From NCBI RefSeq assembly GCF_018555685.1, contig NZ_JAFLWW010000001.1, forward strand, positions 124,001 through 188,000: a stretch of DNA of 64,000 nucleotides, given 5' to 3'. Both the position numbers and the translations under genes were made by a program. This document shows positions 1-17,594 of the stretch, piece by piece. The notes beneath the pieces were generated by a model. The model was not told the DNA's origin. It did not search any database and was given only the letters and a program-made list of their open reading frames with translations. Positions within the stretch are counted from its first letter, which is position 1. Each line of letters starts with the position of its first letter. This stretch comes from Aminobacter anthyllidis. Lineage in GTDB: Bacteria; Pseudomonadota; Alphaproteobacteria; Rhizobiales; Rhizobiaceae.

Positions 1-456
1 GCACATGCGGGCGAAACGGGACCGGCCGCCTACATCAGGGGCTCGCTTGACGCTTTGAAGGTCGAACGCATCGATCATGGCTACAATGTCGTCAATGACA
101 TGCAGTTGATGCAGCGCTGCAAGGATGAGGGGGTGCTCTTCACCGTATGCCCTTCAACCGCAGCGGTCACTTCGGCGTGGCATGATCTGTCGGCGCCTGA
201 TCACGCCATTCGCCAGATGCTCGATTTTGGCCTGACGCTTTCGATCCACAGCGACGATCCGCCAATGTTCTTCACCGACCTCGAGAACGAATACGTAAAG
301 GCGGTCGAACTGCTGAAGTTCACCCCGCGCGACATCCGGGACGCCATCCTGGCGGGCATCGACGGCTCCTGGCTTGATGCAACGACAAAGCGTCGGTGGC
401 TGCAGGAGTGGTCGGAAGAGATCGACGGCCTGATGACGGCGTTGTCGCCCAACTAG
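1..456 (+). CDS. Adenosine/adenine deaminase family protein, C-terminal part
   Basis: This is the last 151 residues of a metal-dependent purine deaminase; the start lies left of the window. The visible part opens with the catalytic HAGE block (residues 2-5), followed by the VERIDHGY block and the SDDPPMF block whose aspartates bind zinc and position the attacking water. Members of the family hydrolyse the 6-amino group of adenosine, adenine or N6-substituted analogues. The sequence aligns almost without gaps to the second deaminase at 6060-7118, so the two are paralogues. It is convergent with the AraC gene at 560-1429 and lies beside a Rieske oxygenase and nucleoside-type transporter genes, which suggests a catabolic rather than salvage role. 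Family is clear; the exact substrate cannot be read from the sequence. Confidence 0.85.
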   Translation, partial: AHAGETGPAAYIRGSLDALKVERIDHGYNVVNDMQLMQRCKDEGVLFTVCPSTAAVTSAWHDLSAPDHAIRQMLDFGLTLSIHSDDPPMFFTDLENEYVKAVELLKFTPRDIRDAILAGIDGSWLDATTKRRWLQEWSEEIDGLMTALSPN

Positions 457-559
457 GCGCGGCGTTCCAGCGTCGCCAGTACCGGCGCGCTCACAACCTG
501 CTGCGTCAGCTGGGCTTGCCTTGTCGCGGGCCCGGCTGACGACGAAAAGTCCCCGCCGT

Positions 560-1429
560 TCAATATGCGATATCGACCGTATCCTCGGCAACTTCGCTTG
601 GCTTGTGGTAGCCCATGTTCGCGCGCACTTCAGTTGGCGACATGCCGAAAAGCTGCTTGATCTGACGCGAGAAATGGTAGGGGTTCTTGTAGCCGCATTG
701 ATATGCGATTTCCGCAATCGTCAGGCCGCTGTGCAAGAGCAGATGACGTGCCCGTTTTGCGCGTACCTGCCAGAGATAGCGGGCCGGTGTGACCCCGATA
801 TGTTTGCGAAACGACAGGATGAGATGCTGCGGCGTTCGCGCGACCAACGCCGCCAGGCTGTTGATCGTGACATCCTTTTCGGAATTTTCTTCGATGTAGT
901 TTCTGGCGCGATGGACGGGTCGGGGAATATGCCGATCACGCTCTGAAACGTGGGCTTCGTGAAAATAGGCCGCGTAAAGAGCCTGCCCCAGGGCGTTGCG
1001 CAGCATGTTGAGATTGGCTGTGGATCCGGAGCCCAGTTCGACGCCAAGGCGCTGAAGCGCTTCAAGCGGCTCTGATATCGGAATCTTGGCGGGCACCTCG
1101 CGCAGAAGCCGCGCAATCGAGTCCGTCAGCAGTCCTGGTGAGCCTTCGCACCAGCTCACCCTGCAGCGATCACCATTGCCATATTCGAACAAAACCTGTC
1201 GTTCGTTGCGAAAGACGCCGCACTCGCCGCTATCCACGATCGTCACTTCTTCGTCGCACGTCACCCTTGCCGTTCCTTCGTGGACCAGCAGCAGCGTGAC
1301 GTAGCGATTGCGAAGCGGGCCATATACCCCACCCGCACTGTACATCGCCTCGCCGAAAGTGAAGCCATGCTCCGGGTCGACAATCGTCTGCAATGGCTGG
1401 CTCCACTCGTTAACGGGACGAAGACTCAC
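560..1429 (-). CDS. AraC family transcriptional regulator (copy 1)
   Basis: A 289-residue one-component regulator. The N-terminal part (about residues 15-160) is a cupin-like effector-binding domain of the AraC-binding type, and the last 100 residues hold two helix-turn-helix units; the second has the hallmark run AEIAYQCGYKNPYHFSRQ followed by FGMSP. It is divergent from the Rieske oxygenase gene with about 180 bases between them, so it probably controls that promoter and its own. It is strongly similar along its whole length to the AraC gene at 4931-5764, both containing VDPEHGF near the start and PQHLI-SFRKHIGVTP in the first DNA-binding unit. A substituted purine or its oxidation product is a reasonable guess for the effector, by context only. 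Confidence 0.9.
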   Translation of the reverse strand: MSLRPVNEWSQPLQTIVDPEHGFTFGEAMYSAGGVYGPLRNRYVTLLLVHEGTARVTCDEEVTIVDSGECGVFRNERQVLFEYGNGDRCRVSWCEGSPGLLTDSIARLLREVPAKIPISEPLEALQRLGVELGSGSTANLNMLRNALGQALYAAYFHEAHVSERDRHIPRPVHRARNYIEENSEKDVTINSLAALVARTPQHLILSFRKHIGVTPARYLWQVRAKRARHLLLHSGLTIAEIAYQCGYKNPYHFSRQIKQLFGMSPTEVRANMGYHKPSEVAEDTVDIAY

Positions 1430-1611
1430 GGTACGCCGCTATCCAGCTATTTCAAGCGGCGGCTTATGGCGATCTTCATTCAAGGTATCCTTTAGGCCGG
1501 CAAGGACATTCCTCGAAAACCTCTGTTCGCCGACTATTCAGCTACGAAAATCAAAGCCGATCCGACGAACCAGATATGGCAAATCGGGCCGGGCTCCAGG
1601 GAGCTGAACTT

Positions 1612-2667
1612 ATGTTTTTGCCCGTCGACAACTCGAAAACGAAAAGCGAGCTGCCGCCCGGATGCACATTCGCGGAAAGCGACTGGCATATCCTCTCCTC
1701 GTTCTGGCATCCGGTGGAATATGCTCACGAAGTTGGCGAAAAGCCTGTGCGGGCCCGCCTCCTGGATGTCGACCTTGTGCTCTACCGGACACCGCAGGGC
1801 GTAGCAGTCGCTCGCGATATCTGTCCTCACCGCGGCACCAGGATCAGCTCCGGCTGGATGGCCGACGGCCAGATCGTCTGCCCGATGCATGGGCTGCATT
1901 TCGACCATGGCGGACAGTGCACCAAGATCCCGTCGATGACCGATCCGACGGCGAAGATTCCGCCCAAGCTGAGGCTGCTGACTGTGCTGTCGGAGGAGCG
2001 ATACGGCATAATCTGGGTATGCCTCAACGGTGAACCGATCTGGCCGATCCCTGAATGGCCCGGACTTTCCAACGCGGCCTGGAAGACGGTCCATCTGCCC
2101 AAGGATACCTGGAATGCGGCGGCGAGCCGCCATGTCGAAAACTTCAACGATGTCGCCCATTTCCCATGGGTTCATGCCGAGAGCTTTGGTTCGGCGACAG
2201 CGGTTCCGATTCCGCAATACACGGTCGATCACGCGGAATTCGGGCTGCGGTTCTCTTATCCATACCCGAACGGCGCCAACTACTATCCCGATGGCGTCGA
2301 GGGCGCCGAGCGCAACGTCGTCTACAGCTATGAGCTGACCTATCCGTTCTCGACGATCATCATCATCGATCCGGAAGGCTCGGACTACGTGCAATATCTG
2401 GCGGATACGGTGTGTCCGGTTTCCGCCCGCGAAACCCGCATCTTCCAGCTGCTCACCGACACGACCGGCAATCCGGACGGCGAATACTGGAAGAAGTTCC
2501 AGATGCTGATCAACGACGAAGACAAGTCGATGGTCGAGGAGCAGCGACCGGAAGACCTGCCGCTCGATCTGACTGAAGAAATCCACGTTCCGTGCGATCG
2601 CCTGTCGCTTGAATACCGGCGTGCGCTTGCCAAGAAGTTCGGGCTCGGCGCGCCGATCGCAAGTTGA
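1612..2667 (+). CDS. Rieske non-heme iron oxygenase, alpha subunit
   Basis: A 351-residue terminal oxygenase. The Rieske cluster motif is complete: C71-x-H73 and C90-x2-H93. The mononuclear iron site follows as N-x2-D180-x2-H183-x4-H188, so both centres look functional. Size and motif spacing fit the homomeric VanA/NdmA-like group, which removes O- or N-linked alkyl groups, rather than the larger ring dioxygenases. The start at 1612 is preferred over an in-frame ATG at 1576 because AGGGAG lies at the right distance before it. The reductase gene follows after 78 bases and should supply electrons. Neighbouring deaminases and a nucleoside-type importer point to an N-alkylated purine as substrate; this is inference. 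Alternatives are an aromatic methyl ether or another N-methyl compound. Confidence 0.9.
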   Translation: MFLPVDNSKTKSELPPGCTFAESDWHILSSFWHPVEYAHEVGEKPVRARLLDVDLVLYRTPQGVAVARDICPHRGTRISSGWMADGQIVCPMHGLHFDHGGQCTKIPSMTDPTAKIPPKLRLLTVLSEERYGIIWVCLNGEPIWPIPEWPGLSNAAWKTVHLPKDTWNAAASRHVENFNDVAHFPWVHAESFGSATAVPIPQYTVDHAEFGLRFSYPYPNGANYYPDGVEGAERNVVYSYELTYPFSTIIIIDPEGSDYVQYLADTVCPVSARETRIFQLLTDTTGNPDGEYWKKFQMLINDEDKSMVEEQRPEDLPLDLTEEIHVPCDRLSLEYRRALAKKFGLGAPIAS

Positions 2668-2745
2668 GCCCGGCCAATTCAGCGAATTCGGGATCGTTGC
2701 CGCAAAGTTCCACGTGTTGCCTGACAGGCCAGGAAGGAGCCGAGC

Positions 2746-3759
2746 ATGAACATCGCGCTGTCTGCCCATGGAAATGCTATGATCCACCAGGTCAACCGTT
2801 CCGCGCGTCTGCAAGTCCGGATCGCCGCCAAAACCAGCGAAGCCCAGGATATTGCAGGCTTCGAACTGGTCGATGACGGTGGCGAGGACTTGCCGGAATT
2901 CACGGCGGGGTCGCATGTCGATGTCTTCATGCCCAACGGGCTTGTTCGCCAGTATTCGCTTCGCAACGATCCGCGTGAGCGCCACTGCTACCGTCTGGGT
3001 GTGCTGCGTGACCGGCAGGGCGCTGGTGGCTCGATCTTCATGCACGATATGCTGAAGTCAGGCGACGTGATCGAGGTCAGCCACCCACGCAACGCCTTTC
3101 CGCTCAACGAACAGTCTCCGTCCTCACTGCTGCTGGCCGGTGGCATTGGCATCACGCCGATCCTGTCGATGGCCCACAGGCTGTCGGCCCTGGGACGGGA
3201 CTTCGCGCTGCACTATTGCGCCCGAAACGCCGACCGGATGGCCTTTCGCGCCGAGCTCGATGCGGCTGCTTTCAACAGGCAGGTTCACTTCCATCTCGAC
3301 GACGGGCCAGCCGAGCAGAAACTGAACATCGCGGAATTGTTGCAGTCGAGCCCAAAGGGCACGCATCTCTATGTTTGCGGACCACGCGGCTTCATGGACG
3401 CCGTCATCGGCGAAGCCGAACGGTCGTGGCCGAAGGAAACCATTCACCGCGAGTATTTCGGCAAGATCGCTGATGTCGGGTCAAGCGATGACAGGCCGTT
3501 TGCCGTCCAGATTGCCAGCACCGGCGAGGTTTTTGCCATCGCGGCAGGCGAAAGCGTGGTCTCGGTGCTCGGCGCCAACGGCATCGAGATCCCGGTATCC
3601 TGCGAGCAAGGCATCTGCGGAACCTGCGTGACGCGCGTCCTTGCCGGGTTGCCTGACCACCGCGACCTCTATCTGACCGATGCCGAACATGCCGCCAATG
3701 ACCAGATGACGCCGTGCTGTTCGCGGGCGTTGTCGGAAATCGTCGTGCTGGATTTGTGA
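2746..3759 (+). CDS. PDR/VanB family oxidoreductase (flavin and [2Fe-2S] reductase)
   Basis: A 337-residue electron-transfer partner for the oxygenase just upstream. The first 100 residues form a ferredoxin-reductase-type flavin-binding barrel with the RQYSLRN motif; the middle contains the nucleotide-binding part with LLAGGIGITPILSM and YVCGPRGFM; the C-terminus is a plant-type [2Fe-2S] ferredoxin with C286-x4-C291-x2-C294 and a fourth ligand at C324. This is the domain order of the phthalate dioxygenase reductase/VanB class, moving electrons from NAD(P)H to the Rieske protein. A ribosome site (GGAG, seven bases ahead) supports the ATG at 2746. The spacing to the oxygenase gene suggests cotranscription. 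Confidence 0.92.
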   Translation: MNIALSAHGNAMIHQVNRSARLQVRIAAKTSEAQDIAGFELVDDGGEDLPEFTAGSHVDVFMPNGLVRQYSLRNDPRERHCYRLGVLRDRQGAGGSIFMHDMLKSGDVIEVSHPRNAFPLNEQSPSSLLLAGGIGITPILSMAHRLSALGRDFALHYCARNADRMAFRAELDAAAFNRQVHFHLDDGPAEQKLNIAELLQSSPKGTHLYVCGPRGFMDAVIGEAERSWPKETIHREYFGKIADVGSSDDRPFAVQIASTGEVFAIAAGESVVSVLGANGIEIPVSCEQGICGTCVTRVLAGLPDHRDLYLTDAEHAANDQMTPCCSRALSEIVVLDL

Positions 3760-3846
3760 ACGAGGGAAATATGCACCGGTGGACCTACACCGGGCAAAGC
3801 AGGGCCGGACCGAACCGGACTAGACAACCAATGGGAGTTAGAAATC

Positions 3847-4878
3847 ATGATTGGACGATTGACCGGCAGGCTCGTTGCCTCCTTGGCAATGGCTGTGCTT
3901 GCGCTGTTTGCGCTTTCGTCGGTGTCGCGCGCCGAAAACCCGGACAAGCTCCGCATCGCTGTCATTCTGGCTTCCGGCGTGGAAAGCGGCTGGGACGGCA
4001 CGCTGATTGAATCGCTCGAGCGGGTGAAGGCGGCCAGGCCGCATGGGCTTGAGCTGAGCTGGAAATACACCGACCCGCTATGGGGCGACGATGCAGGCGA
4101 CGCCATGCGGCTGTTCGCCGAAAGTGGCCAGTATGACGTCATCTGGGCCCACAGCACCTATTCCGACCAGGTCAAGAAGCTGAAGGATGAGTTCCCGGAG
4201 ATACTCTTCGTCGTTACCGGGTCTGGGAACGAAGGCTTGGGCGGCAACCAGTACATGCTCTACAAGCGTGTCCACGAGCCTGCCTACCTGCTTGGCGTCA
4301 TCGCCGGCCGCATGACCAAGTCCAACGTGCTTGGCACGGTGGGCACATTTCCCGCCGACGATGTGAACGATTCGATCAACGCCTTCTTCGCCGGAGCGAG
4401 ATCGGTAAATCCGTCGATCAAGGAAAAGGTCGTTTTCATCGAGTCCTGGTATGACCCGGCCAAGTCGGCCGAATACACCCATGCTCAGATCGCAACGGGC
4501 GCCGACGTCATCTTCCAGCAGACCGACAACTTCAAGGAATGCGAAGCCGCCAAGATCATCTGCTTCGGCAGCAATCAGGATCAGTCCAGCTTCTCCCCGA
4601 CCACCATCGTCAGCAGCACCGTGATCCGCTGGGATCCGGACATCATGCACGTCGTCGACGCCTGGTGGCAGCACAAGGTCGAAGGAAAGCCGCTCGCCGG
4701 AAGCACGGAGCGGATATGGCGCGGCATGAAGGATGGCGGTGCCGACATGGCTCCCTATCACGGCTTCGAGGCAACGCTGCCGCAACCGGTGATATCAGAG
4801 GTCGAGGCGCTGAAGGCCAAGATCATCTCAGGCGAGTTCAAGGTGCCGCTCGATACATCAGCCCCCAAGCCCAATTGA
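3847..4878 (+). CDS. BMP family ABC transporter substrate-binding protein (copy 1)
   Basis: A 343-residue periplasmic binding protein of the BMP (basic membrane protein, PnrA-like) family, whose characterised members bind purine nucleosides for ABC import. Residues 1-29 are a signal peptide ending in a VSRAE-type cleavage region with no lipobox cysteine. The mature protein starts with the family pattern KLRIAVIL, followed by WGDDAGDAMRLFAESGQYD, HSTYSDQVKKLKDEFPE and LLGVIAGRMTKSN. A GGGAG site precedes the ATG. It is highly similar to the BMP gene at 7179-8210. No permease gene follows directly; it probably feeds the same ATPase and permeases (8274-11844) or provides a second specificity. 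Confidence 0.9.
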   Translation: MIGRLTGRLVASLAMAVLALFALSSVSRAENPDKLRIAVILASGVESGWDGTLIESLERVKAARPHGLELSWKYTDPLWGDDAGDAMRLFAESGQYDVIWAHSTYSDQVKKLKDEFPEILFVVTGSGNEGLGGNQYMLYKRVHEPAYLLGVIAGRMTKSNVLGTVGTFPADDVNDSINAFFAGARSVNPSIKEKVVFIESWYDPAKSAEYTHAQIATGADVIFQQTDNFKECEAAKIICFGSNQDQSSFSPTTIVSSTVIRWDPDIMHVVDAWWQHKVEGKPLAGSTERIWRGMKDGGADMAPYHGFEATLPQPVISEVEALKAKIISGEFKVPLDTSAPKPN

Positions 4879-4885
4879 GACAACG

Positions 4886-4919
4886 CTCCCGCCGGGCCGA
4901 GAGGTCGGTCCGGCGGGAG
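4886..4919. terminator. Bidirectional hairpin between BMP copy 1 and AraC copy 2
   Basis: A perfect 10-base-pair stem (4886-4895 with 4910-4919), extended by an inner CCGA/TCGG pairing, sits between two convergent genes. There is no T-run on the plus side, so its strength as a plus-strand terminator is uncertain. Confidence 0.55.
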
Positions 4920-4930
4920 GCGTGGCTCGG

Positions 4931-5764
4931 TCAAAAGACCATGTTCACTGCGTTTTCGGCGACACGACTTGGTTTGCGGTAATCCATATTGGCACGCAGT
5001 TCCGTAGGCGACATGCCGAAATGCAGCTTGATCTGCCGCGAGAAATGAAAGGGGTTCTTGTAGCCGCATTGATACGCGATTTCTGCGATCGTCAAACCGG
5101 TATGCAACAGGCGCTGCTTGCCACGGTTCGCCCGTACCTGCCAGAGATAGCGGACAGGTGTCACTCCGATGTGTTTTCGGAACGATGAGATCAGGTGCTG
5201 GGGCGTGACGGCCACCACATCCGCCACATGGCCGACAGTCATCTCCTTTTCGAAATTATCCTCCAGATAGCGCCGGGCTTGATGAATCGAACGGGGGATG
5301 TGACGCTCCAGCTCCGAGACCTGTGCTTCATGGAAATAGGCGGTGAACAGCGACTGCCCCAGGTTGTTGCGGAGCATGTTGACGTAGGCGCCTGTCCCTG
5401 AGCCCAGTTCCAGCCCCAGGCGCACAAGTGTTGACAGCCGGTCGGATATTGGAATTTGAGACGGGACGTCGCGCATGCGCAAGGCAACGGACTCCGGCAG
5501 ACTGGCGGGAAATCCCTCGCACCAGCTCACCCTGTCGCGCGCGCCTTTCTCATATTCGAAGAGCGAAACGCCTTCGCACAGGATGAAGCCGCATTGCCCG
5601 GGTTCGACGATGGTGACTTCCTCATCGCATGTCACCTTGGCGCTGCCTTCGTGCATCATCAGCAAGGTCGCATAGCGTCTGGTCAGTGGTCCGTAGACCC
5701 CTCCGGTTGAGTAGTCGGCTTCGCCAAACGAGAAGCCGTGTTCGGGATCTACAACACTGTCCAC
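4931..5764 (-). CDS. AraC family transcriptional regulator (copy 2)
   Basis: A 277-residue AraC regulator, paralogous to the one at 560-1429. It has the same layout: an N-terminal effector domain beginning VDPEHGFSFGEA and C-terminal paired helix-turn-helix units with AEIAYQCGYKNPFHFSRQ and FGMSPTELR. The start is a GTG with GGAG upstream; it lacks the extra dozen N-terminal residues of copy 1. The gene is divergent from the second deaminase (6060-7118) with about 295 bases between them, mirroring the divergent arrangement of copy 1 and the Rieske gene. The likely role is control of the deaminase-BMP-ABC transporter operon. Confidence 0.9.
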   Translation of the reverse strand: MDSVVDPEHGFSFGEADYSTGGVYGPLTRRYATLLMMHEGSAKVTCDEEVTIVEPGQCGFILCEGVSLFEYEKGARDRVSWCEGFPASLPESVALRMRDVPSQIPISDRLSTLVRLGLELGSGTGAYVNMLRNNLGQSLFTAYFHEAQVSELERHIPRSIHQARRYLEDNFEKEMTVGHVADVVAVTPQHLISSFRKHIGVTPVRYLWQVRANRGKQRLLHTGLTIAEIAYQCGYKNPFHFSRQIKLHFGMSPTELRANMDYRKPSRVAENAVNMVF

Positions 5765-6059
5765 TCGCTCGCTCCACCCAGCTATTCGCCCGTGGCGGCA
5801 GGTCCCGCCGCCTTCCAGGAATTCAGAACATTAGACAAACGTAATCTTAATTCAAGACATGCTTCGGATCGGCGGCGATATTCCGCTTGGCACCCTGATG
5901 CACGACAATCCGGTCGTAGCGAAGAGACAGCCAGATCCGATCGAGGACGGAAATCCATCCGTGATTGTCGACAGGAATGACTGTTGCGCCGGGTCGGTTC
6001 CGGTGAAGCGTATCGAGCGATACGGGTCTCAAGCTTCGATACACAGACGGAGAAGATCA

Positions 6060-7118
6060 GTGGATCTGCAGGAATTTATACGAAGTATACCTAAAACTGA
6101 ACTCCATCTTCATCTGGAGGGCGCGATAAATCCGGAGACATTTCTTAAGATTTCCAGGAAAAACAAGCTGGAAGTTCCGCAATTCAAGATTGTCTCTGAT
6201 CTCTATCGCTATGACAATCTTCTGGATTTCCTCAAAGTCTATAGTATGGCTTCCAGGTCGGTGATTGATGCCGATGATTTCCATCTCATCACCTACGAGG
6301 CGCTCCAGAGCTGCGCCAACAGCGGCGCTCGCTACGTCGAGTTCTTCTTCAGTCCGCATGTGCACCTGGAATGCGGCGTGGCCTATCAGACCATGCTCGC
6401 CGGCATATTCCGCGCAATGGACGACATCGAGACGGACTTCGGGCTGATTTCGAAGCTGATACCCGCGCACAATCGCGAACATGGGCTTGAGCGTGGTTTC
6501 GAGTTTCTGGACATGGTGCTTGCCCACCGAACCGACAAGGTGATTGGCATCGGTCTCGATTTTGACGAAACACCTTTCCCGCCAGCACAATTCAAGCCGC
6601 TTTTCGATCGGGCGCGCCAGGCGGGACTTCATCGCACTGCTCATGCCGGAGAGGGCGGTCCGGCGTCCAACGTGCGGGACTCGCTGGATTTGCTGAAGGT
6701 CGAGCGCATCGACCACGGTTATCGTGTGATGGAGGATCTCGATCTGGTCGCGCGCTGTCGCGCTGACCGGACCGTCTTCACCATCTGCCCGAGTTCAACC
6801 GTTGGGGTGACGATCTGGCGCGATCTTGCCGCGAAGGATCATCCTATTCGGCAAATGATCGAAGCCGGACTCACGATCGTTGTCGCAGCGGATGATCCGC
6901 CAATGTTCGAGACCGATCTGGCCAACGAATATCAGCTGCTTGCCACGAACATGAATCTCGATGCCGCCGCATTGAAGACGCTTGCGCTCAATTCGCTCGA
7001 GGCGTCGTGGCTCGACGAGTCCGTCAAGCGGGATTGGCGCGCATCATGGTCACGCGAGATCGATGAGCAGATTGCTCTTCTGGATGCGGAAAACAGTGAT
7101 GCACTCACGTCTGCATAA
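6060..7118 (+). CDS. Adenosine/adenine deaminase family protein (copy 2)
   Basis: A 352-residue purine deaminase. The metal-binding motif H16-x-H18 (in TELHLHLEGA) is at the N-terminus, followed by HAGEGG, VERIDHGY and ADDPPMF, so the zinc ligands and catalytic Glu/His are present. The start is taken as the GTG at 6060 because GGAGAAG precedes it at normal distance and because the family begins a few residues before the HLHLEG motif; an upstream in-frame ATG at 5859 would add 67 residues unlike the family. It is the first gene of a run with BMP copy 2 and the ABC transporter genes, 61 bases before the next. It probably deaminates the purine brought in by that transporter. N6-substituted adenine deamination is possible; not shown. 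Confidence 0.9.
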   Translation: MDLQEFIRSIPKTELHLHLEGAINPETFLKISRKNKLEVPQFKIVSDLYRYDNLLDFLKVYSMASRSVIDADDFHLITYEALQSCANSGARYVEFFFSPHVHLECGVAYQTMLAGIFRAMDDIETDFGLISKLIPAHNREHGLERGFEFLDMVLAHRTDKVIGIGLDFDETPFPPAQFKPLFDRARQAGLHRTAHAGEGGPASNVRDSLDLLKVERIDHGYRVMEDLDLVARCRADRTVFTICPSSTVGVTIWRDLAAKDHPIRQMIEAGLTIVVAADDPPMFETDLANEYQLLATNMNLDAAALKTLALNSLEASWLDESVKRDWRASWSREIDEQIALLDAENSDALTSA

Positions 7119-7178
7119 GGCTGCGACGGCGTAACAAAAAAACATAAGCGCCGCCTGAAAATCAATGGGAGCAATGGA

Positions 7179-8210
7179 ATGTTAGGTCAATTATCAAGAC
7201 GACTACTCGCCATCTGGGCGCTGACTTTGTTCGCCGTTTTCGGACACACAAACGGCACGTACGCAAGCTCACCCGAAAAGCTCCGCATCGCGGTCATCTT
7301 GTCGGCTGGTCTTGACCACGGCTTCGATGCAACGCTGATCAAGTCGCTCGAGCGCGTCAAGCAAGCAAAGCCACATGGCCTCGACATCGAGTGGAAGTCG
7401 ACTGAACCGCTATGGGGCGACGACGCCGGCGATGCGATGCGCCTGTTCGCCGAAAGCGGCGACTACGACATCATCTGGGCACACAGCACCTATTCCGACC
7501 AGGTCAAGAAGCTGAAGGACGAGTTTCCGGAAATTCTCTTCGTCGTGGTCGGTGCCGGCAATGAGGGCCTCGGTGGCAATCAGTATTGGGTCTACAAGCG
7601 TCTCCACGAACCTGCCTATCTGCTTGGCGTTTTGGCAGGGCGGATGACCAAATCCGATGTGCTTGGCGTCGTCGCGCCCTTTTCCATCGAGGACATCAAT
7701 GACTCGATCAACGCATTTTTCGCCGGTGCGCGGGCGGTCAATCCGGCGATCGCCCGGAAAGTAGCGTTCGTCGGATCCTGGTATGATCCAGCCAAGGCGG
7801 CTGAATATGCCGGCGCCCAGATTGCGGCCGGAGCCGATGTGATTTTCCAGCTGTCCGGCAATTTCAAGCCGTGCGAGGCCGCGAAAATCCTGTGCTTCGG
7901 TAGTTTCCAGGATGAAAGCAACTTTTCGCCGGCCACGATCCTCAGCAGCACCGTAGCCGTCTGGGACCCTGATATGACGTGGATCATCGAAAACTGGTGG
8001 AGCCACAAGGCTGAAGGCAAGCCTTATGGCGGCAACCTCAAGGAGCATTGGTTCGGCATGAAGGATGGCGGAGCCGCGTTTGCTCCCTACCATGATCTGG
8101 AAGCGAGCCTGCCAGTGGACGTTCGGACGGAAGTTGAGACGCTGAAGGCAAAGATCGCCTCGGGTGAACTCGAAATTCCAGTCGACCTGTCGGAGCCTAA
8201 GTCCGATTAG
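7179..8210 (+). CDS. BMP family ABC transporter substrate-binding protein (copy 2)
   Basis: A 343-residue BMP/PnrA-like binding protein of exactly the same length as copy 1. The signal peptide is about residues 1-30 (hydrophobic core LLAIWALTLFAVF, then TYASS). Mature-protein blocks match copy 1 nearly residue for residue (KLRIAVIL, WGDDAGDAMRLFAESGDYD, HSTYSDQVKKLKDEFPE, RMTKSDVLG), with differences concentrated in the second half around LSGNFKPCEAAKILCFG. GGGAG precedes the ATG at 7179. It lies in one direction with the ATPase and permease genes and is probably the cognate binding component of that importer, carrying a purine nucleoside or related base. Confidence 0.92.
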   Translation: MLGQLSRRLLAIWALTLFAVFGHTNGTYASSPEKLRIAVILSAGLDHGFDATLIKSLERVKQAKPHGLDIEWKSTEPLWGDDAGDAMRLFAESGDYDIIWAHSTYSDQVKKLKDEFPEILFVVVGAGNEGLGGNQYWVYKRLHEPAYLLGVLAGRMTKSDVLGVVAPFSIEDINDSINAFFAGARAVNPAIARKVAFVGSWYDPAKAAEYAGAQIAAGADVIFQLSGNFKPCEAAKILCFGSFQDESNFSPATILSSTVAVWDPDMTWIIENWWSHKAEGKPYGGNLKEHWFGMKDGGAAFAPYHDLEASLPVDVRTEVETLKAKIASGELEIPVDLSEPKSD

Positions 8211-8273
8211 CCGCTGCGCCACCTCCACTGCTGCTTGCGCCATTTTTTGAGTGAACTTGATCAAGGAACCACC

Positions 8274-9854
8274 ATGTCGCTCTTACCGAGCATCAAAGAT
8301 CCGACGCCGGCGAATGCCAGAAAGGCGGGTACTGAGGATAAACCTCTGGCGCTGCACGTTGCAGGTCTGACCAAGCGCTTTGCCGGCGTGACGGCCAATG
8401 ACGGCGTCGACTTCGACCTGGAGGTTGGCGAAATCCATTGCCTGTTCGGCGAAAACGGCGCGGGCAAGTCGACCTTGTCGTCCTGCATCTTCGGTTTCTG
8501 CACGCCGGATGCCGGGCAGATCATCGTGCGTGGCCAGCCCGTCGAGATGCATTCGCCAAGGGACGCGATCAAGCTCGGCATCGGCATGGTGCATCAGCAT
8601 TTCGTGCTGGTGCCGGAGTTCACCGTGCTGGAGAACATCATTGTCGGCACCCAGAAATCCGGCTGGCGGCTGGACGACAGGGCGGCCAGGCAAAAGCTGA
8701 ATAGCCTCTGCGAAGCCTACGGCATCGAGATCGATCTCGACGCCTATGTCTGGCAACTGGCGGTGGGGCGCCAGCAATGGGTCGAGATCCTCAAGGCGCT
8801 TTACCTCGACGTACAGATCCTCATCCTCGACGAACCGACGGCGGTGCTGACACCTGATGAGTCCGCGCGCCTGTTCGCGATCATGCGCAAGATGTGCGCC
8901 AACGGCATGTCGATCATCCTGATCACCCACAAGGTCGCCGAAGTGATGCAGTCGAACCGCGTCACCGTTCTGCGCAAGGGCAAGACTGTTGCCACCGTCC
9001 AGACCAGGGATACCTCGCCTGAGGAACTGGCGAGGCTCATGGTTGGCCGCGAGGTGTCGTTTTCGGTCAACAAATCGACAATCGCGCCCGGCGATACCGT
9101 GCTCGAAGTCAGTGGTCTCGGCGCCAGGGGCTACTGGAACGAGGCCGTCCTGAACCAGGTGTCGCTGTCGATCGCGCGGCACGAAATCCTCGGCATCGCC
9201 GGCGTTGCAGGCAATGGCCAGAAGGAGCTTTTCGAGGTGCTTTCGGGCGTGCGCTGGGCGCGCGAAGGCACGATCAGGCTGAACGGCGAGGACGTCAGCC
9301 GGCTCACGCCGCGGGCGATGATGGACAGGGGCGTCGGGCACATTCCCGACGACCGTTTTCGCGAGGGCCTTGTCGGGCCGTTCAGCATTGCCGAAAACCT
9401 CATCCTCGGCTGGCAGCGTAACGCCAAGTACCGCAGCGGCCTCTTTCTGGATCGTACCAAGATCGCGGCGCTGTCGAAGACGATGATGGCCCGGTACCAG
9501 ATCGCCGCGCGCGACGACGAAGTGCCGGTCGAAAATCTGTCCGGTGGCAACGCCCAGAAGGTCATCCTGGCACGCGAGTTCCTGCATTCATCGGGGCTGC
9601 TGCTCGCCAACCAGCCGACACGCGGCCTCGACATCGGCGTCATCGAATATGTCTACGCCCAATTGCTGCAGAAGCGCGAAGAGGGCTTCGCGATCCTGCT
9701 TGCCTCGGAAGAGCTCAGCGACCTGTTCAATCTCGCCGACCGCATCGCGGTGATGTTCAAGGGCGAGATCGTCGGCGTCGTCGATCCCAAGACAACGACA
9801 GTGGAAGAAGTCGGCATGATGATGGCCGGACGCAGGATGGAGGCTGGACGATGA
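8274..9854 (+). CDS. Nucleoside/simple-sugar type ABC transporter ATPase (double domain)
   Basis: A 526-residue protein with two fused ABC domains, the form used by BMP-dependent nucleoside importers and sugar importers. The N-terminal domain has a full Walker A (GENGAGKST, residues 59-67), the family-type signature LAVGRQQWVEI and Walker B with D186-E187. The C-terminal domain has the degenerate Walker A region GVAGNGQKEL but a canonical signature LSGGNAQK near residue 422 and LLANQPTRGLDIG, as expected for this class where one site is weak. The start at 8274 is chosen for the AAGGAA ahead of it; 13 further codons upstream stay open but have no ribosome site. Its stop overlaps the next start by four bases (ATGA). 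Confidence 0.93.
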   Translation: MSLLPSIKDPTPANARKAGTEDKPLALHVAGLTKRFAGVTANDGVDFDLEVGEIHCLFGENGAGKSTLSSCIFGFCTPDAGQIIVRGQPVEMHSPRDAIKLGIGMVHQHFVLVPEFTVLENIIVGTQKSGWRLDDRAARQKLNSLCEAYGIEIDLDAYVWQLAVGRQQWVEILKALYLDVQILILDEPTAVLTPDESARLFAIMRKMCANGMSIILITHKVAEVMQSNRVTVLRKGKTVATVQTRDTSPEELARLMVGREVSFSVNKSTIAPGDTVLEVSGLGARGYWNEAVLNQVSLSIARHEILGIAGVAGNGQKELFEVLSGVRWAREGTIRLNGEDVSRLTPRAMMDRGVGHIPDDRFREGLVGPFSIAENLILGWQRNAKYRSGLFLDRTKIAALSKTMMARYQIAARDDEVPVENLSGGNAQKVILAREFLHSSGLLLANQPTRGLDIGVIEYVYAQLLQKREEGFAILLASEELSDLFNLADRIAVMFKGEIVGVVDPKTTTVEEVGMMMAGRRMEAGR

Positions 9855-10915
9855 TCCGGATCGAACGGCGCATTGAAGCCAATCCATGGTGGACCGCCGG
9901 CACGCTGGTGGCCGCACTGGTCGCGGGCATGCTGGCCTCCGCGCTCATTGTGGCGACGGCCGGCGCTGATCCCCTCGAGGCGTTCAGGACCTTGTTCTTC
10001 GGTGCCTTTGGCTCGCAGAAAGCGATGATGACGACGCTCATCAAGTCGACGCCGCTGATCCTGACGGGCCTGGCGACCGTCATCGCCTTCCGCGCCCAGA
10101 TATGGAGCATCGGCCAGGAAGGCCAGGTCTTCGCCGGCGCAATGGCCGGCTATCTCGGCAGTCAGGTCCTGTCTGGCCTGCCGCCACTGCTGTTCTTTCC
10201 CGGGGTTATCCTGTTCGGCGTCGCCGGCGGGCTTCTGCTGGGCGGCGCCTGCGCGATCCTCAAGACCCGCTTTGGCGTCAACGAGATCGTCTCGACGGTG
10301 ATGACCAACTACCTTGCCATCTACCTGTTGTCCTACCTGCTGGCGGGCGGCCCCTGGGCCGAAATTGGCGACGGCGCCTCCTACCAGCAGTCTGTGCCGC
10401 TTCCGGCGGCGGAACATCTGCCGCTGCTGTTTGGAACGAAGCTACATTTCGGCGTGCTGTTGCCCTTCATTGCCGCGATCTGCGGTGCCGTCATGCTCGA
10501 CCGCACGGCACTTGGCTACGAGATCAAGGCGCTGGGGACCAATCCCGTCGCGCTCGGCCACAAGGGCACCAACATCGCCAAGACCATCGTCGTGGTGATG
10601 TGCATCAGCGGCGGGCTCGCGGCCCTTGCGGGCGTCATCGAACTCTACGGCGTCGGCCACAGGCTGAAGGCCGACAACCTTGTCGGGCTTGGCTATGCCG
10701 GCATCATCGTCGGCATGATCGGCGGCCTGCGACCACTCGGCACCGTACTTGCGGGGCTGCTGTTTGGCGGGCTGGCAAGCGGTGCCGTGTCGATGCGGGT
10801 GGTCAGCGACATTCCCGCGTCTCTGGTTCCCGCCATGCAGGGCATCATCCTGCTTTTCGTCCTCTGTGCCAGCGTGATGGCGCGTTACAAGATCGTCAGG
10901 GGTACCGCGTCATGA
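9851..10915 (+). CDS. Nucleoside-type ABC transporter permease 1
   Basis: A 354-residue inner-membrane permease of the branched-chain/simple-sugar superfamily (BPD_transp_2). It shows about nine to ten hydrophobic segments, the first near residues 17-37, and the family block FRAQIWSIGQEGQVFAGA followed later by LGTNPVALGHKGTNI and a glycine-rich AALAGVIELYGVGH region. This subunit is longer than permease 2, as in other BMP-linked systems. It starts in a four-base overlap with the ATPase stop and ends in a four-base overlap with permease 2, so the three genes are translationally coupled. It forms half of the membrane channel. Confidence 0.93.
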   Translation: MIRIERRIEANPWWTAGTLVAALVAGMLASALIVATAGADPLEAFRTLFFGAFGSQKAMMTTLIKSTPLILTGLATVIAFRAQIWSIGQEGQVFAGAMAGYLGSQVLSGLPPLLFFPGVILFGVAGGLLLGGACAILKTRFGVNEIVSTVMTNYLAIYLLSYLLAGGPWAEIGDGASYQQSVPLPAAEHLPLLFGTKLHFGVLLPFIAAICGAVMLDRTALGYEIKALGTNPVALGHKGTNIAKTIVVVMCISGGLAALAGVIELYGVGHRLKADNLVGLGYAGIIVGMIGGLRPLGTVLAGLLFGGLASGAVSMRVVSDIPASLVPAMQGIILLFVLCASVMARYKIVRGTAS

Positions 10916-11844
10916 GCGGATTGTTTCAGGAAGCCATCCTCATCAGCATCTTCGCCGCGACCCTGCGAACGATGACCCCATTGCTGTTTTCGGCGATGGG
11001 CGAACTCGTCACCCAGCGCGCCGGGATCTGGAACATGGGCGTCGAAGGCACGATGCTGATGGGCTCGTTCGTCGCCTATTTCGTGGCGACGGCGACAGGA
11101 TCCTTGTGGCTGGCGGTGCTGGCGGCGGTCCTGGCAGGAGCCGTCATGGGGCTGATCATCGCCTTCATGACGGCAACGATGCGCGTCGATCATTTCGTCA
11201 CCGGCCTCGGCCTCAACCTCTTTGCCGGCGGCATCACGCTGTACTGGTTTCAAAGCTACGTTCACGGTGGTCCGCAACCCTCATTCTCCGGTTTTGAAGA
11301 CGTGCCGCTGCCCTTCCTGTCCGACATCCCCTTCATCGGCCCGGTGCTGTTCTCACAGCGTCTCTTGACCTATGCCGCCTTCTTTATCGTTCCCGCTATC
11401 TGGTTCCTGCTTTACCGCACGCGTTATGGCCTGGAACTGCGTTGCCTCGGTGAGAACCCCAAGGCGCTCGACGTCAAGGGACTGAGCGTGCCCGTTCGCC
11501 AGTATGGTGCCGTGATGTTCGGCAGTGCCATGACCGGGCTCGGCGGTGGCTTCCTGATGCTCGCCTTCTCCGATCGCTTCATCGCCGACTTCTCGGCCGG
11601 CCGCGGCTGGATCGTGGTCGTTGCGCTGATCGCCGGAAACTGGAAGCCCAAGGGCGTTCTGTTGGCGGTGGTGGCCTTTGCCTTCCTGGAAGCTGTCGCC
11701 ACGCACGCCCAGGTGGTCGGCGTCGGCGTGCCGCGCCAGTTGTTGCTCGCTTTGCCCTACATCGCCTCGATTATCCTTTTGATGGGGGTTCGCTTCCGGA
11801 CCGGCCAGCCGGCAATGCTTGGGTTTCCTTACGCGCGCGAGTGA
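10912..11844 (+). CDS. Nucleoside-type ABC transporter permease 2
   Basis: A 310-residue second permease of the same superfamily. The start is the ATG at 10912, which overlaps the TGA of permease 1; a longer frame to the left exists but runs antiparallel to no family sequence. Conserved blocks include TPLLFSAMGELVTQRAGIWNMGVEG near the N-terminus (residues about 19-44), FVTGLGLNLFAGGIT and LGENPKALDVKGLSV, typical of NupQ-like subunits. Together with permease 1, the double ATPase and a BMP binding protein it completes an importer for purine nucleosides or chemically related compounds. Confidence 0.93.
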   Translation: MSGLFQEAILISIFAATLRTMTPLLFSAMGELVTQRAGIWNMGVEGTMLMGSFVAYFVATATGSLWLAVLAAVLAGAVMGLIIAFMTATMRVDHFVTGLGLNLFAGGITLYWFQSYVHGGPQPSFSGFEDVPLPFLSDIPFIGPVLFSQRLLTYAAFFIVPAIWFLLYRTRYGLELRCLGENPKALDVKGLSVPVRQYGAVMFGSAMTGLGGGFLMLAFSDRFIADFSAGRGWIVVVALIAGNWKPKGVLLAVVAFAFLEAVATHAQVVGVGVPRQLLLALPYIASIILLMGVRFRTGQPAMLGFPYARE

Positions 11845-11907
11845 CGCGGGCGATAGCGTGTCCGAGCGAAGCTTTTTCCAGCAACTCTGAGCGGGAGGTC
11901 AACGACA

Positions 11908-12606
11908 GTGGAAGACGCGCATCTCGCACTCTTGGCGCTCCCTGGCGAGCAGCAGAACGACCTGGTCGAGCAACCCGCAAGCCTTTGCCAGAATCCGCAT
12001 TCGTTACGCGACAGCGGTGAAAACCGCTTGCAGACAGCGATCGGGCGCGAGGTGCGCTTCTGTCGAAAGCGTCATGGCATGACCCTCGCGGAGCTTGCGG
12101 ATGCCGCCAGCGTATCGCTCGGCATGATGTCCAAGATTGAAAATGGGCATATCTCGCCGTCACTGGCCACGTTGCAGGCGCTGGCTCAGGCTTTGGCTGT
12201 CCCGCTCTCGTCCTTGCTCAAGCGCTTCGAACAGGAGCGCACCGCTGTCTTCGTAAAGGCAGGAACGGGTGTCGAGGTCGGACGGCGCGGCACGCGAGCC
12301 GGCCATCAATACAACCTCCTGGGTTACATCGGCTCCAACACGGGCGGGATCTTCGTCGAGCCCTATCTCATCACGCTGACCAAGGACACCGACACGTTTC
12401 CGCTGTTTCAGCATGCCGGAATGGAGCTGCTTTACCTGCTCGAAGGCGAGGTCAGCTACCGCCACGGCAATTCGGTCTACAGGCTGATGCCAGGTGACAG
12501 TTTGTTCTTTGATGCCGACGCCCCGCACGGCCCCGACGAGCTGGTCAAACTCCCCATTCGCTTCCTGTCGATCATTTCATATGGCGTTGGCGGCGGAGAG
12601 GATTGA
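11908..12606 (+). CDS. XRE-family regulator with C-terminal cupin domain
   Basis: A 232-residue regulator. A helix-turn-helix of the Cro/XRE type spans about residues 40-103 (GMTLAELADAASVSLGMMSKIENG), and a small-molecule-binding cupin occupies the last 90 residues (MELLYLLEGEVSYRHGN, PGDSLFFDADAPHGP). Such proteins repress or activate catabolic operons in response to a ligand held in the cupin barrel. The GTG start at 11908 has GGGAGG upstream. It lies 63 bases behind permease 2 on the same strand and is probably part of, and feedback on, the transporter operon. It is the third regulator of the module, after the two AraC proteins. Confidence 0.9.
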   Translation: MEDAHLALLALPGEQQNDLVEQPASLCQNPHSLRDSGENRLQTAIGREVRFCRKRHGMTLAELADAASVSLGMMSKIENGHISPSLATLQALAQALAVPLSSLLKRFEQERTAVFVKAGTGVEVGRRGTRAGHQYNLLGYIGSNTGGIFVEPYLITLTKDTDTFPLFQHAGMELLYLLEGEVSYRHGNSVYRLMPGDSLFFDADAPHGPDELVKLPIRFLSIISYGVGGGED

Positions 12607-14498: not shown

Positions 14499-16580
14499 GT
14501 GAGATCGATGCGCCTGCGTGCTGCCGCCACGTTCTTCCTTGCCGCGCTGGTCGCAGGTTCCGCGCGCGCTGAGGATGCTGCCGGTCTTCCGGCCCTCGAC
14601 GCCGACAAGCTCGTCTTCTCCATCTCCAACATGGATCCGGGCGTCAGGCCAGGGATGGACTTCTATCGGTATGCGTCGGGAGCCTGGCTCGACAGGGTGG
14701 AGCGTCCCGCCCGCCTGTCGAGCTACGGCGTTTTCGATGTCATGGCCGAGAGGCTACGCGGCCAGATGTCGCTTGCCGTTGCGAAAGCGGGCGAGGAGGC
14801 TGCTAACGCGCCGAAAGGCACCCCGGTGCAGCAGGTCGGGAGTCTCTACAACGCGTACATGGATACAGCTAAGCTCGATGCTGCCGGCATTGAGCCAATC
14901 CGTGGCGAGCTTGACCGCGTTGCGGCGATAAAGTCGTTCGACGATCTGGTTCAGGTCATGGCCCGGCAAATCTATGTCAACGGACCGATCCTTTTTGCCG
15001 CGTTTGCGACCTTGAACGATCCGGCCGACACGACGCGGAACGCGTTCTATGCCGTTGGAGGAGGCTTCGGGATAGAAGCCGGCTTCGATTCGATCCTGGC
15101 CGAGGCACCGGATGACCCGCGTCGTGCGGCATATCGCAAGTACGTCGCGTCGGTCATGCAGATCGCTGGATACCCCGATGAAGAGGCAGCCCGAATCGCC
15201 GACCTCACGCTGAGCGTCGAGACCGAACTCCACGCCGCAAAATTGTCTCCGGCCGAAGGCGCCGACCCGCGCAACCGCTTCACGAAGGCGACATTCGATG
15301 AGTTGCAGGCCCAGATTCCTGAACTGGACCTCAAAGCTTACTTCCGCAGCGTCGGGTATGAAGTCCCTCAGTCGGTCGTGATGTACGAACCGCACTATCT
15401 GCCGGTGCTATCGAAACTGCTGCGGGAGCGGCCGCTTGGCGAAATCAAGGACTACATTGCCTTTCGCATTGTAAGGTCGTTCAGCCCTGTCCTGACGACG
15501 GCGTTCGACGCGCCGGAACTGGCGCTGCAGGAAGCCCTGACCGGGGTCGGCGTTCAACAGCCGCGACAGGAGCGGCTGCTGAAACTGCTGCAAGACAACC
15601 TCGGACACCCGGTCAGCCAGATCTACGTCCAGAGCTTCTTCCCTGAAGAGAACAAGCAAAAGGCGCTGGACATGGTCGAACGCATCCTGACCGCGTTCCG
15701 TGAGCGGATACCATCGCGCGCATGGCTGTCTGAGGCCACCCGTGCCGCGGCTCTCGAGAAGGTGAACAAATTCTACTATCGCGTCGGCTACCCGGACCAT
15801 TGGATAGACTACTCAAGTGTCGAGATCGGGCCGGACCTTGTGGCCGATGTTATCAATATTGGCGCTTTCGGCCAAAAGCGGGAAATCGAAAAGCAGGGGA
15901 AGCCGACGGTACACGAAGAGTTCAACAGCTCTTCCGCCACGCTGCCAATCGTCATCAATGCGGGATATACGCCATCGATCAATGGGTTCGAGGTTACGGC
16001 CGCCATCCTGCAAGCGCCCGCTTTCCTGCCCGACATGGATGCCGCTGTGTATTTTTGCAGGATTGGCGGCATCATCGGCCACGAGATGGTCCATGGCTTC
16101 GACAGCGGCGGCCGGCAATACGATGCGCAGGGCAACTTCCGTGACTGGTGGACGCCTTCAGACGCCAAGGCCTTCGAAGCCGAGGCGCAGAAGCTGATTG
16201 ACCAGGCCAACGCATTTGAAGTCCTACCCGGTCTCCATGCCAATGGCCCCCTGAATGTCCGGGAGAACATGGCCGATGTGGGAGGCATCACGCTCGCCTA
16301 CGCTGCGTTGATGGATTATCTGAAGGAGCACCCGAGCGAGAACGTCAAAATAGATGGGCTGACGCCGGCGCAGCGCTGTTTCATATCCTGGGCCCAAATG
16401 TGGACCTGGAAGGCCACGGACCAATACCTGCGCGCCATCGTTGCAGGTGATGGCCATCCGCCGAACAACTATCGAGCCGTGGCGCCGCTCCAGCACCTCG
16501 ACGCCTTCTATGAAGCATTCGACATCAAGCAAGGCGATCCTATGTGGCTGCCGCCCGAGAAGCGCGTAAAGGCATGGTGA
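14499..16580 (+). CDS. M13 family zinc metallopeptidase (neprilysin/PepO type)
   Basis: A 693-residue exported endopeptidase of normal family length. A signal peptide covers about residues 1-24. The zinc site is complete: H528-E529-M-V-H532 in GHEMVHGFDSGG and E589 in ENMADVGG. The N-terminal half carries the M13_N domain with PGMDFYRYASGAWL near residue 50. The VNAGYTPSINGFEV stretch corresponds to the usual NAYYxPxxN substrate-binding motif. The start is a GTG with GGGAGGAG upstream. Family members cut small peptides; a role in periplasmic peptide turnover is likely. It stands in a same-strand run with envelope genes on both sides. Confidence 0.92.
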   Translation: MRSMRLRAAATFFLAALVAGSARAEDAAGLPALDADKLVFSISNMDPGVRPGMDFYRYASGAWLDRVERPARLSSYGVFDVMAERLRGQMSLAVAKAGEEAANAPKGTPVQQVGSLYNAYMDTAKLDAAGIEPIRGELDRVAAIKSFDDLVQVMARQIYVNGPILFAAFATLNDPADTTRNAFYAVGGGFGIEAGFDSILAEAPDDPRRAAYRKYVASVMQIAGYPDEEAARIADLTLSVETELHAAKLSPAEGADPRNRFTKATFDELQAQIPELDLKAYFRSVGYEVPQSVVMYEPHYLPVLSKLLRERPLGEIKDYIAFRIVRSFSPVLTTAFDAPELALQEALTGVGVQQPRQERLLKLLQDNLGHPVSQIYVQSFFPEENKQKALDMVERILTAFRERIPSRAWLSEATRAAALEKVNKFYYRVGYPDHWIDYSSVEIGPDLVADVINIGAFGQKREIEKQGKPTVHEEFNSSSATLPIVINAGYTPSINGFEVTAAILQAPAFLPDMDAAVYFCRIGGIIGHEMVHGFDSGGRQYDAQGNFRDWWTPSDAKAFEAEAQKLIDQANAFEVLPGLHANGPLNVRENMADVGGITLAYAALMDYLKEHPSENVKIDGLTPAQRCFISWAQMWTWKATDQYLRAIVAGDGHPPNNYRAVAPLQHLDAFYEAFDIKQGDPMWLPPEKRVKAW

Positions 16581-16595
16581 CCAAGGATACTATCT

Positions 16596-17594
16596 TTGCC
16601 TAACAACGGTATCAGCAGACGCGCGTTCGGACTGGGTGTCGCCGCTTCCGTGGGGTCGGGTTTGATCGCGAGCGCGCTTGCCGACACCAGGGTCAACAAG
16701 ACCGCGGATTTCCTTCAGAATGGCGAATACAACTGGTTCCCCGAGAGGTCGCCGACCGGGCCTGTCGTGATCATCGTTTCCGTTCCCGACCAGATGGTCC
16801 ATGTCTATCGAAACGGCATCAGGATCGCAGCATCGTCCTGCTCGACCGGAAAGGCGGGGCACGGCACTCCGACAGGCGTCTTCAAGATCCTGCAGAAGGA
16901 CAAGCATCACCGTTCCAGCACCTACAACAACGCACCAATGCCCAACATGAACCGGCTGACCTGGTCTGGGATAGCGCTGCATGCCGGCAACCTGCCCGGC
17001 TATCCTGCGTCTCACGGCTGTGTGCGATTGCCGCTGGGTTTCTCGGAACTTCTCTGCGGGATCACCAAGCTCGACATGACCGTCATCATCGCCGACGAGA
17101 ATTCACAGCCGGCCTCGGTGGTGCATCCCGGCATGGTTCTCGGCAACTATGCGAGCCAGGAATTCGGCGCGGTGGACGCCTCGATAAAGCACTACCAATA
17201 CGCGCAAGGGCGCAGCCAGGAAACCAGTGCGACCAGCATCGTTGTCAGCGCAAAGGACCGGTCGATCAGCCTGTGGGACAATGCCAGGATCGTCGCCACC
17301 GGAAAAGTCGACATAGCACAGCCGGAAAAGCCGATAGGCAGGCACGTTTATACGCTCACTCAGGTCAACGAAGGGACGAAAGAGCTAACGTGGGTGTCGA
17401 TGGCGATGTCTTCCCGCAGCAAGAATGCCGATGATAATGCGTTGCGGCGAGTGAAGGCGCATCCAGACATATTGAAGAAAGTTCAGAAGGCGATGAGGCA
17501 GGGCATGACTCTGGTCATTACCGACGAGTCGAGTGGTTCCAAAAATCGGACCGCCGACAATTTCACTATCTTTACGGGTGAGGGCCTCTACTAG
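16596..17594 (+). CDS. L,D-transpeptidase (YkuD domain)
   Basis: A 332-residue peptidoglycan cross-linking or protein-anchoring enzyme. The YkuD catalytic signature is complete: H129, then SHGCVRLP with H140 and the nucleophile C142. The N-terminus carries a twin-arginine-type signal (SRRAFGL followed by a hydrophobic stretch), suggesting export in folded form. Residues beyond 200 form a second region with no recognised domain, so the protein is longer than minimal L,D-transpeptidases. The start is a TTG at 16596 with AAGGA upstream, 16 bases after the M13 peptidase stop, suggesting coupling to it. It acts in the periplasm on meso-diaminopimelate-containing stem peptides. Confidence 0.9.
   Translation: MPNNGISRRAFGLGVAASVGSGLIASALADTRVNKTADFLQNGEYNWFPERSPTGPVVIIVSVPDQMVHVYRNGIRIAASSCSTGKAGHGTPTGVFKILQKDKHHRSSTYNNAPMPNMNRLTWSGIALHAGNLPGYPASHGCVRLPLGFSELLCGITKLDMTVIIADENSQPASVVHPGMVLGNYASQEFGAVDASIKHYQYAQGRSQETSATSIVVSAKDRSISLWDNARIVATGKVDIAQPEKPIGRHVYTLTQVNEGTKELTWVSMAMSSRSKNADDNALRRVKAHPDILKKVQKAMRQGMTLVITDESSGSKNRTADNFTIFTGEGLY

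Follow-up and report, generated by a model that had tools for sequence, protein, structure and literature searches.

A conserved Rieske oxygenase, deaminase and importer gene block of Aminobacter anthyllidis as a possible module for the catabolism of N-methylated purine bases

The 64,000-nucleotide stretch of the Aminobacter anthyllidis genome analyzed here (the window; C1:124001-188000 of the 6.7 Mb genome G000) begins with a block of twelve genes. They encode a Rieske non-heme iron oxygenase with a reductase, two deaminases, two BMP substrate-binding proteins, an ATP-binding cassette (ABC) importer and regulators, and might form a catabolic module for an N-methylated purine base. The genes, with their positions in the window, are as follows.

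1..456, + strand: ADA1, adenosine/adenine deaminase family, 3' part only; TIGR01430 at 291.4 bits against a cut-off of 216.55 (NCBIfam)
560..1429, - strand: AraC1 regulator, transcribed away from the Rieske gene; resembles AraC2 and the AraC genes of relatives by similarity
1612..2667, + strand: Rieske non-heme iron oxygenase; Pfam Rieske and VanA_C; 1576 also open as a start
2746..3759, + strand: VanB/PDR-type reductase, NAD-binding and C-terminal [2Fe-2S]; Pfam Fer2 and NAD_binding_1
3847..4878, + strand: BMP1 substrate-binding protein; Pfam Bmp at 97.2 bits; AtzT and 3s99 closest solved structures
4931..5764, - strand: AraC2 regulator, divergent from ADA2; Pfam HTH_18
6060..7118, + strand: ADA2, adenosine/adenine deaminase family, GTG start at 6060; A_deaminase at 267.7 bits; TIGR01430 at 296.8 against a cut-off of 216.55
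7179..8210, + strand: BMP2 substrate-binding protein; Pfam Bmp; 67% identity with BMP1
8274..9854, + strand: ABC importer ATPase with two ABC stretches, start at 8235 or 8274; Pfam ABC_tran
9851..10915, + strand: ABC importer permease 1; Pfam BPD_transp_2
10912..11844, + strand: ABC importer permease 2; Pfam BPD_transp_2
11908..12606, + strand: XRE-cupin regulator, true start uncertain; Pfam HTH_3 and Cupin_2

All genes named in the original prediction, which had been made from the sequence alone, were open at the places given there. The Pfam scan covered 10 of the 12 block proteins, all of them above the cut-off for the expected families and none of them a nucleosidase; ADA1 was identified through NCBIfam and AraC1 only through the similarity listed above. 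The announced two deaminases and three regulators are present, with the additions that ADA1 is cut by the window edge (its frame opens about 650 bases upstream and is complete in the genome) and that a third AraC gene, AraC3, faces it outside the window. The block thereby consists of three divergent units, AraC3<>ADA1, AraC1<>Rieske-reductase-BMP1 and AraC2<>ADA2-BMP2-ATPase-permease-permease, followed by the XRE-cupin gene, whose counterpart in A. niigataensis (94% identical) also comes after the block. The four-base overlaps of the ATPase with permease 1 (9851-9854) and of permease 1 with permease 2 (10912-10915) are as described.

A scan of species genomes detected relatives of the Rieske protein at 22 loci, spread over Aminobacter, Mesorhizobium, Ensifer, Roseovarius, other Rhodobacteraceae and gammaproteobacteria; the counterpart in Aminobacter niigataensis DSM 7050 is 98% identical, and relatives from Roseovarius and other Rhodobacteraceae reach 60-66% identity. 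Within approximately 10 kb of the Rieske relative, an ABC ATPase was found in 18 of the 22 loci, a permease in 17, an AraC gene in 16 (at most 4 kb away in 13), a BMP gene in 15, a deaminase in 12, six of these at only 28-34% identity, and a stand-alone reductase in nine. The neighbor labels were assigned by blastp at 1e-15, and distant matches, such as the ATPase near L030 (29% identity) or the upstream ATPase of L016 (37%), may not belong to the module; the BMP/ABC genes of L022, L025 and L026 are partly just 25-37% identical. The counts are lower bounds, as one side was shorter than 10 kb in at least L014, L017, L018, L019, L020, L023, L025, L028, L029, L031 and L033. The order AraC<>Rieske-reductase-ADA-BMP-importer occurred in five loci (L013-L017; Aminobacter, Mesorhizobium and Ensifer), with no downstream ATPase frame called in L016 and permease 1 not called separately in L013, L015 and L017. 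Judging from gene order, the window block looks like an operon of this type with duplicated AraC, ADA and BMP genes. Chance does not explain the clustering: it is seen again in other genera, and in all 6.7 Mb of the own genome there are just 3 matches to A_deaminase and 12 to Bmp. Both the existence of the block and its conservation are confirmed, which bears out its description as one functional module and excludes an absence of Rieske, deaminase and BMP co-occurrence elsewhere. Some Rieske match at 1e-20 was present in 27 of 297 genomes of the family and a match of at least 69% identity in only five (G000 itself, G261, G207, G089 and G257), a patchy distribution of the kind shown by accessory catabolic traits.

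In the Rieske protein, the ligand motifs read CPHR/CPMHG and the iron motif reads ENFNDVAHFPWVH, in agreement with the CxH/CxxH ligands and the ENxxDxxHxxxxH motif of the NdmA/NdmB type. The ligands predicted as C71/H73/C90/H93 and the iron site are intact, and this numbering fits the start at 1612, which comparison with relatives favors over 1576. The description of the protein as NdmA-like needs correction: its nearest characterized relative is HpxD, a (hypo)xanthine hydroxylase, and it is 38.9% identical to an HpxD of Pantoea vs 28.9% to NdmA. With 28-29% identity to NdmA/NdmB and separate tree clades, orthology with them was ruled out. In a 71-row IQ-TREE tree, which has several long branches and should be read with caution, the module proteins, the oxygenases linked to Rut-like genes and HpxD formed one clade (support 100/96), inside which the two HpxD rows were a separate branch. 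No placement in a clade for aromatic methyl ethers was seen in this tree, which contained no verified VanA or DdmC. The nearest solved relative by sequence was NdmA (E 1.6e-36), in a search that listed no HpxD structure; the structure model (predicted local distance difference test score 80.3, poor around the iron motif) was also closest to NdmA, tied with GxtA/SxtT. The reaction of the protein cannot be read from phylogeny. In the Rieske alignment, which included the window and 20 of the 22 loci (L018 and L023 were absent, the L023 match being in pieces), the Gln of an FQ...D motif was present in 21/21 module rows and the Asp in 19/21; both Rut-linked rows carried the Gln, and the two positions were Ala and Arg in both HpxD rows. 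In the relative at L030:10001-10978, CPFHG and the iron motif are kept, but the first Cys-His pair of ligands is missing (CxHR gave no match).

The nearest plasmid-borne Rieske relatives (42-43% identity) lie in clusters of the Rut pyrimidine type. There (L078:4795-11027 and L079:2829-13328), the oxygenase and a VanB-type reductase stand beside Rut-like pyrimidine-degradation genes for RidA, a hydrolase, a flavin reductase and an LLM oxidoreductase, with the formaldehyde dehydrogenase gene fdhA in addition in Cupriavidus. A route for N-methylpyrimidines is possible for these clusters; the adjoining pyrimidine-ring-type genes and fdhA suggest that the Rut-linked branch includes nucleobase demethylases.

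Both deaminases (55% identity to each other) exceeded the family cut-off, and the A_deaminase metal and catalytic motifs (HxH, HAGE, His and Asp) were intact, as predicted. The nearest structures were 3rys, 4gxw and 3ou8, the last of which we take to be the adenine deaminase Pa0148; these motifs are common to all three and to TIGR01430. In true adenosine deaminases, the Asp of a motif just past HxH contacts ribose. Unlike the known adenine/adenosine deaminases, the module proteins vary at this position, with Glu, Ala or Asp across 12 aligned sequences. This variation and the nearest structures bear only indirectly on a choice of adenine over adenosine as substrate.

For BMP1, AtzT and the adenine-modeled 3s99 ranked first by sequence and by fold, the best fold match among BMP proteins being of the AtzT type. 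At about 30% identity, module BMPs retain the aromatic sandwich of both and, in the site, an acidic residue. Aromatic-45, Asp-165 and Trp-194 were found in 15/15 module-type BMPs. As the control BMPs of the own genome (L002-L006) also had the aromatic-45 (5/5) and in part Trp-194 (2/5) and none an acidic residue at 165 (0/5), only position 165 discriminates fully; the count omits L001 and L008 of the own genome (unusable frames) and treats L007 and L083 as one gene. The hydrogen-bonding set Ser97/Asn218/Asn220 of AtzT does not occur in the module-type BMPs, where Ser97 is replaced by His in 15/15, Asn218 by Leu, Gln or Ser and Asn220 by Gly in 8/15. Overall, sequence, fold and site residues bring BMP1 and BMP2 nearer to nucleobase binders (AtzT/3s99) than to nucleoside binders; the nucleoside binding originally assumed appears less likely, and a purine-type ligand remains supported.

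The evidence for demethylation comes from neighbors of the module in relatives. Within the same distance of about 10 kb, an NdmC-like match was present in 14/22 loci (three at only 34-38% identity), an NdmD-like and an NdmE-like match in ten each, and all three stood in this order, with an NdmD-like protein of 578-588 aa, in L015, L016, L019, L020, L021 and L029. In the Pfam scan of L016, the NdmC-like protein had VanA_C without Rieske, the NdmD-like protein Rieske and Fer2, and the NdmE-like protein was a glutathione transferase. This make-up matches the caffeine N7-demethylase complex as presented in PMC4408171, where the caffeine cluster also holds frmA/frmB and where ndmCDE homologues of Sinorhizobium and Mesorhizobium are noted with function unknown. 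In L022, L024 and L026, the NdmD-like matches were only separate Rieske-type proteins of about 240-265 aa (from 11851, at 15823-16617 and at 11452-12180, respectively) and not Rieske-reductase fusions; that of L022 stood outside the Pfam scan. In L015, the genes NdmC/NdmC/NdmD/NdmE/FrmA/FrmB adjoin the module, with FrmA at 592 bits (cut-off 544) and FrmB at 448 bits (cut-off 282; NCBIfam). FrmA was found in four of the 22 loci, FrmB in two and a GcvT-like gene in five, in L029 inside the operon between the Rieske and reductase genes. For the own-genome GcvT-like protein, the best-scoring model was that of trimethylamine N-oxide demethylase, whose second half it matched at 198.5 bits (cut-off 1100). 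Because such genes stand near some related modules, N-demethylation is likely, and the formaldehyde/one-carbon genes favor it since it needs such handling and ring hydroxylation does not.

The own genome contains four oxygenase-plus-BMP blocks, including that of the window. On C26, outside the window block, ndmC'-ndmC-ndmD-ndmE-frmA-frmB stand together, and a BMP/ABC importer diverges from them; C25 has an NdmC-like gene with BMP/ABC near 28-34 kb (L010, C25:28328-34286) and, near 625 kb, a second Rieske-reductase-BMP-ABC module with GcvT and with FrmA about 7 kb upstream. The L010 counterpart in A. niigataensis DSM 7050 (L012:783-6740) lies directly upstream of the module, so its position on another contig here is a rearrangement between close relatives. 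The window reductase shares 41% identity with the reductase portion of an NdmD-like protein and, by Pfam, has no Rieske domain, thus lacking the extra N-terminal one of NdmD. A reductase of this kind can still serve as a partner, because NdmD minus its first 266 residues drives N-demethylation (PMC11855574).

With moderate confidence, we consider the block to be an inducible catabolic module that imports, N-demethylates and deaminates a free N-methylated purine base, probably of the adenine type. Gene content, intact metal sites, conserved clustering and family placements are the basis of this proposal; substrate, demethylation over ring hydroxylation, step order and regulation we infer. In the periplasm, the base would be captured by BMP1/BMP2, and its import would be the task of the ATPase/permease set. 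The oxygenase, with NADH electrons delivered via the VanB-type reductase, would hydroxylate the N-methyl group, which would be lost as formaldehyde and handled by FrmA/FrmB encoded elsewhere in the genome. ADA1/ADA2 would hydrolyze the 6-amino group to a hypoxanthine-type base, which the xanthine dehydrogenase encoded elsewhere would convert to urate. The AraC proteins might sense the substrate and activate each divergent unit. A Rieske oxygenase with an NADH reductase, probably likewise acting on a purine, is shared with NdmABCDE of Pseudomonas putida CBB5, and NdmC/D/E and FrmA/FrmB homologues occur beside some related modules and elsewhere in the own genome; the module differs in its own Rieske clade, a short reductase without the extra Rieske domain and the linked deaminases and BMP/ABC importer.

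Several observations weigh against this proposal. Although the oxidative dealkylation originally predicted is likely from the neighbors of relatives, no FrmAB, GcvT or NdmCDE gene stands in the window's own block, and FrmA was not found within about 10 kb in 18/22 loci, some on short contigs. No deaminase was within reach in 10/22 loci, including three of Roseovarius and L029, again partly on short contigs. NdmA/NdmB fall in a supported clade apart from the Rieske protein. In an alignment column that we take to be a purine contact of NdmA, the window has Gln and 7/7 other rhizobial-side rows Ala or Ser; by such contact-column residues, compared (like the FQ...D motif) without R_L033, the Rieske pockets appear to differ between relatives. 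Moreover, BMP2 was no nearer to AtzT by BLAST than L005 of the own genome (110 bits each).

The chief rival of N-demethylation is hydroxylation of the HpxD type, in which adenine would be imported, deaminated by ADA1/ADA2 to hypoxanthine and hydroxylated on the ring to xanthine/urate by the Rieske enzyme, as a molybdenum-independent route. We regard it as possible but doubtful. HpxDE oxidize hypoxanthine and xanthine (PMC7373994), and HpxDE of Klebsiella is the nearest characterized Rieske relative in the tree, with a VanB-type reductase partner in both; the identity and shared clade given above argue for this route, and adenine-type deaminases with nucleobase-type BMPs suit plain adenine. However, the genome already has a xanthine dehydrogenase (xdhB above cut-off), the block gave no Rfam match, and so no xanthine/urate riboswitch, at gathering thresholds, the FQ...D residues set the module apart from HpxD, and the formaldehyde/one-carbon genes beside some relatives would be left unaccounted for. 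The module has AraC instead of LysR, and neither the LysR regulator nor the urate hydroxylase gene hpxO of the hpx context was found in the window block, whereas the HpxD-type loci compared had LysR or LysR with hpxO.

A non-purine N-methyl heterocycle, such as an N-methylpyrimidine, demethylated by the oxygenase while the deaminases act on an amino-heterocycle, is unlikely. It would fit the Rut-type clusters of the plasmid-borne relatives, one of them with fdhA. On the other hand, the deaminases exceed the adenosine deaminase cut-off in a family known for purine substrates, in fold and at three residues of the site the BMPs agree with purine binders, and AtzT bound pyrimidine bases no more tightly than 620 uM (PMC6834077). 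Even less probable is a substrate such as a cytokinin, an adenine with a larger N6 substituent, which would be dealkylated to adenine and an aldehyde and then deaminated. A deaminase with an oxygenase would suit such substrates, and the hosts of the relatives include, we presume, plant-associated rhizobia; against it, relatives at 60-66% identity belong to Rhodobacteraceae, which we take to be mainly marine, the neighbors of some related modules handle formaldehyde and not larger aldehydes, and no link of a Rieske oxygenase with cytokinins appeared among the literature matches listed. The cytokinins and N6-methyladenine originally named thus found no specific support. Equally improbable, deamination might come first, at the N6-methyl group with release of methylamine, the oxygenase taking another position. 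Since Add of E. coli deaminates N6-methyladenosine, the deaminase might itself be what demethylates, but AdeC was without activity on N6-methyladenine (both in PMC13296781), and present evidence does not tell ring-N from N6 substrates apart.

Within the favored reading of N-demethylation, a more specific version is tentative: a dedicated pathway for methylated adenine (e.g., 1-, 3- or 7-methyladenine from RNA/DNA turnover), in which an HpxD-side purine N-demethylase would be coupled to its own nucleobase importer and deaminases, in a genome with four separate BMP-linked oxygenase blocks. If true, the four together could remove methyl groups from several purine positions. The module would be a concrete gene set for methylated-purine catabolism, and it could explain bacterial use of methylated bases that nucleic acids release or other organisms produce. 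In several genomes, ndmCDE-like genes stand near this separate second Rieske system, which comes with an importer and in many cases deaminases; this clustering suggests that a bacterial route for the recycling of modified purines is more widespread.

Upstream of the Rieske gene (window about 1430-1611), nine aligned sequences have a conserved stretch, AGATAT or AGGTAT followed after about 16 bases by GGCATTCC or GACATTCC, a candidate promoter or AraC site. The gammaproteobacterial loci L027, L028, L030 and L033 have three or four oxygenase genes of the Rieske enzyme's superfamily per cluster, which may strip several positions of one substrate. By eye, L027, L028 and L030 also have a gene for 746-808 aa resembling a TonB receptor and one resembling a major facilitator superfamily (MFS) transporter.

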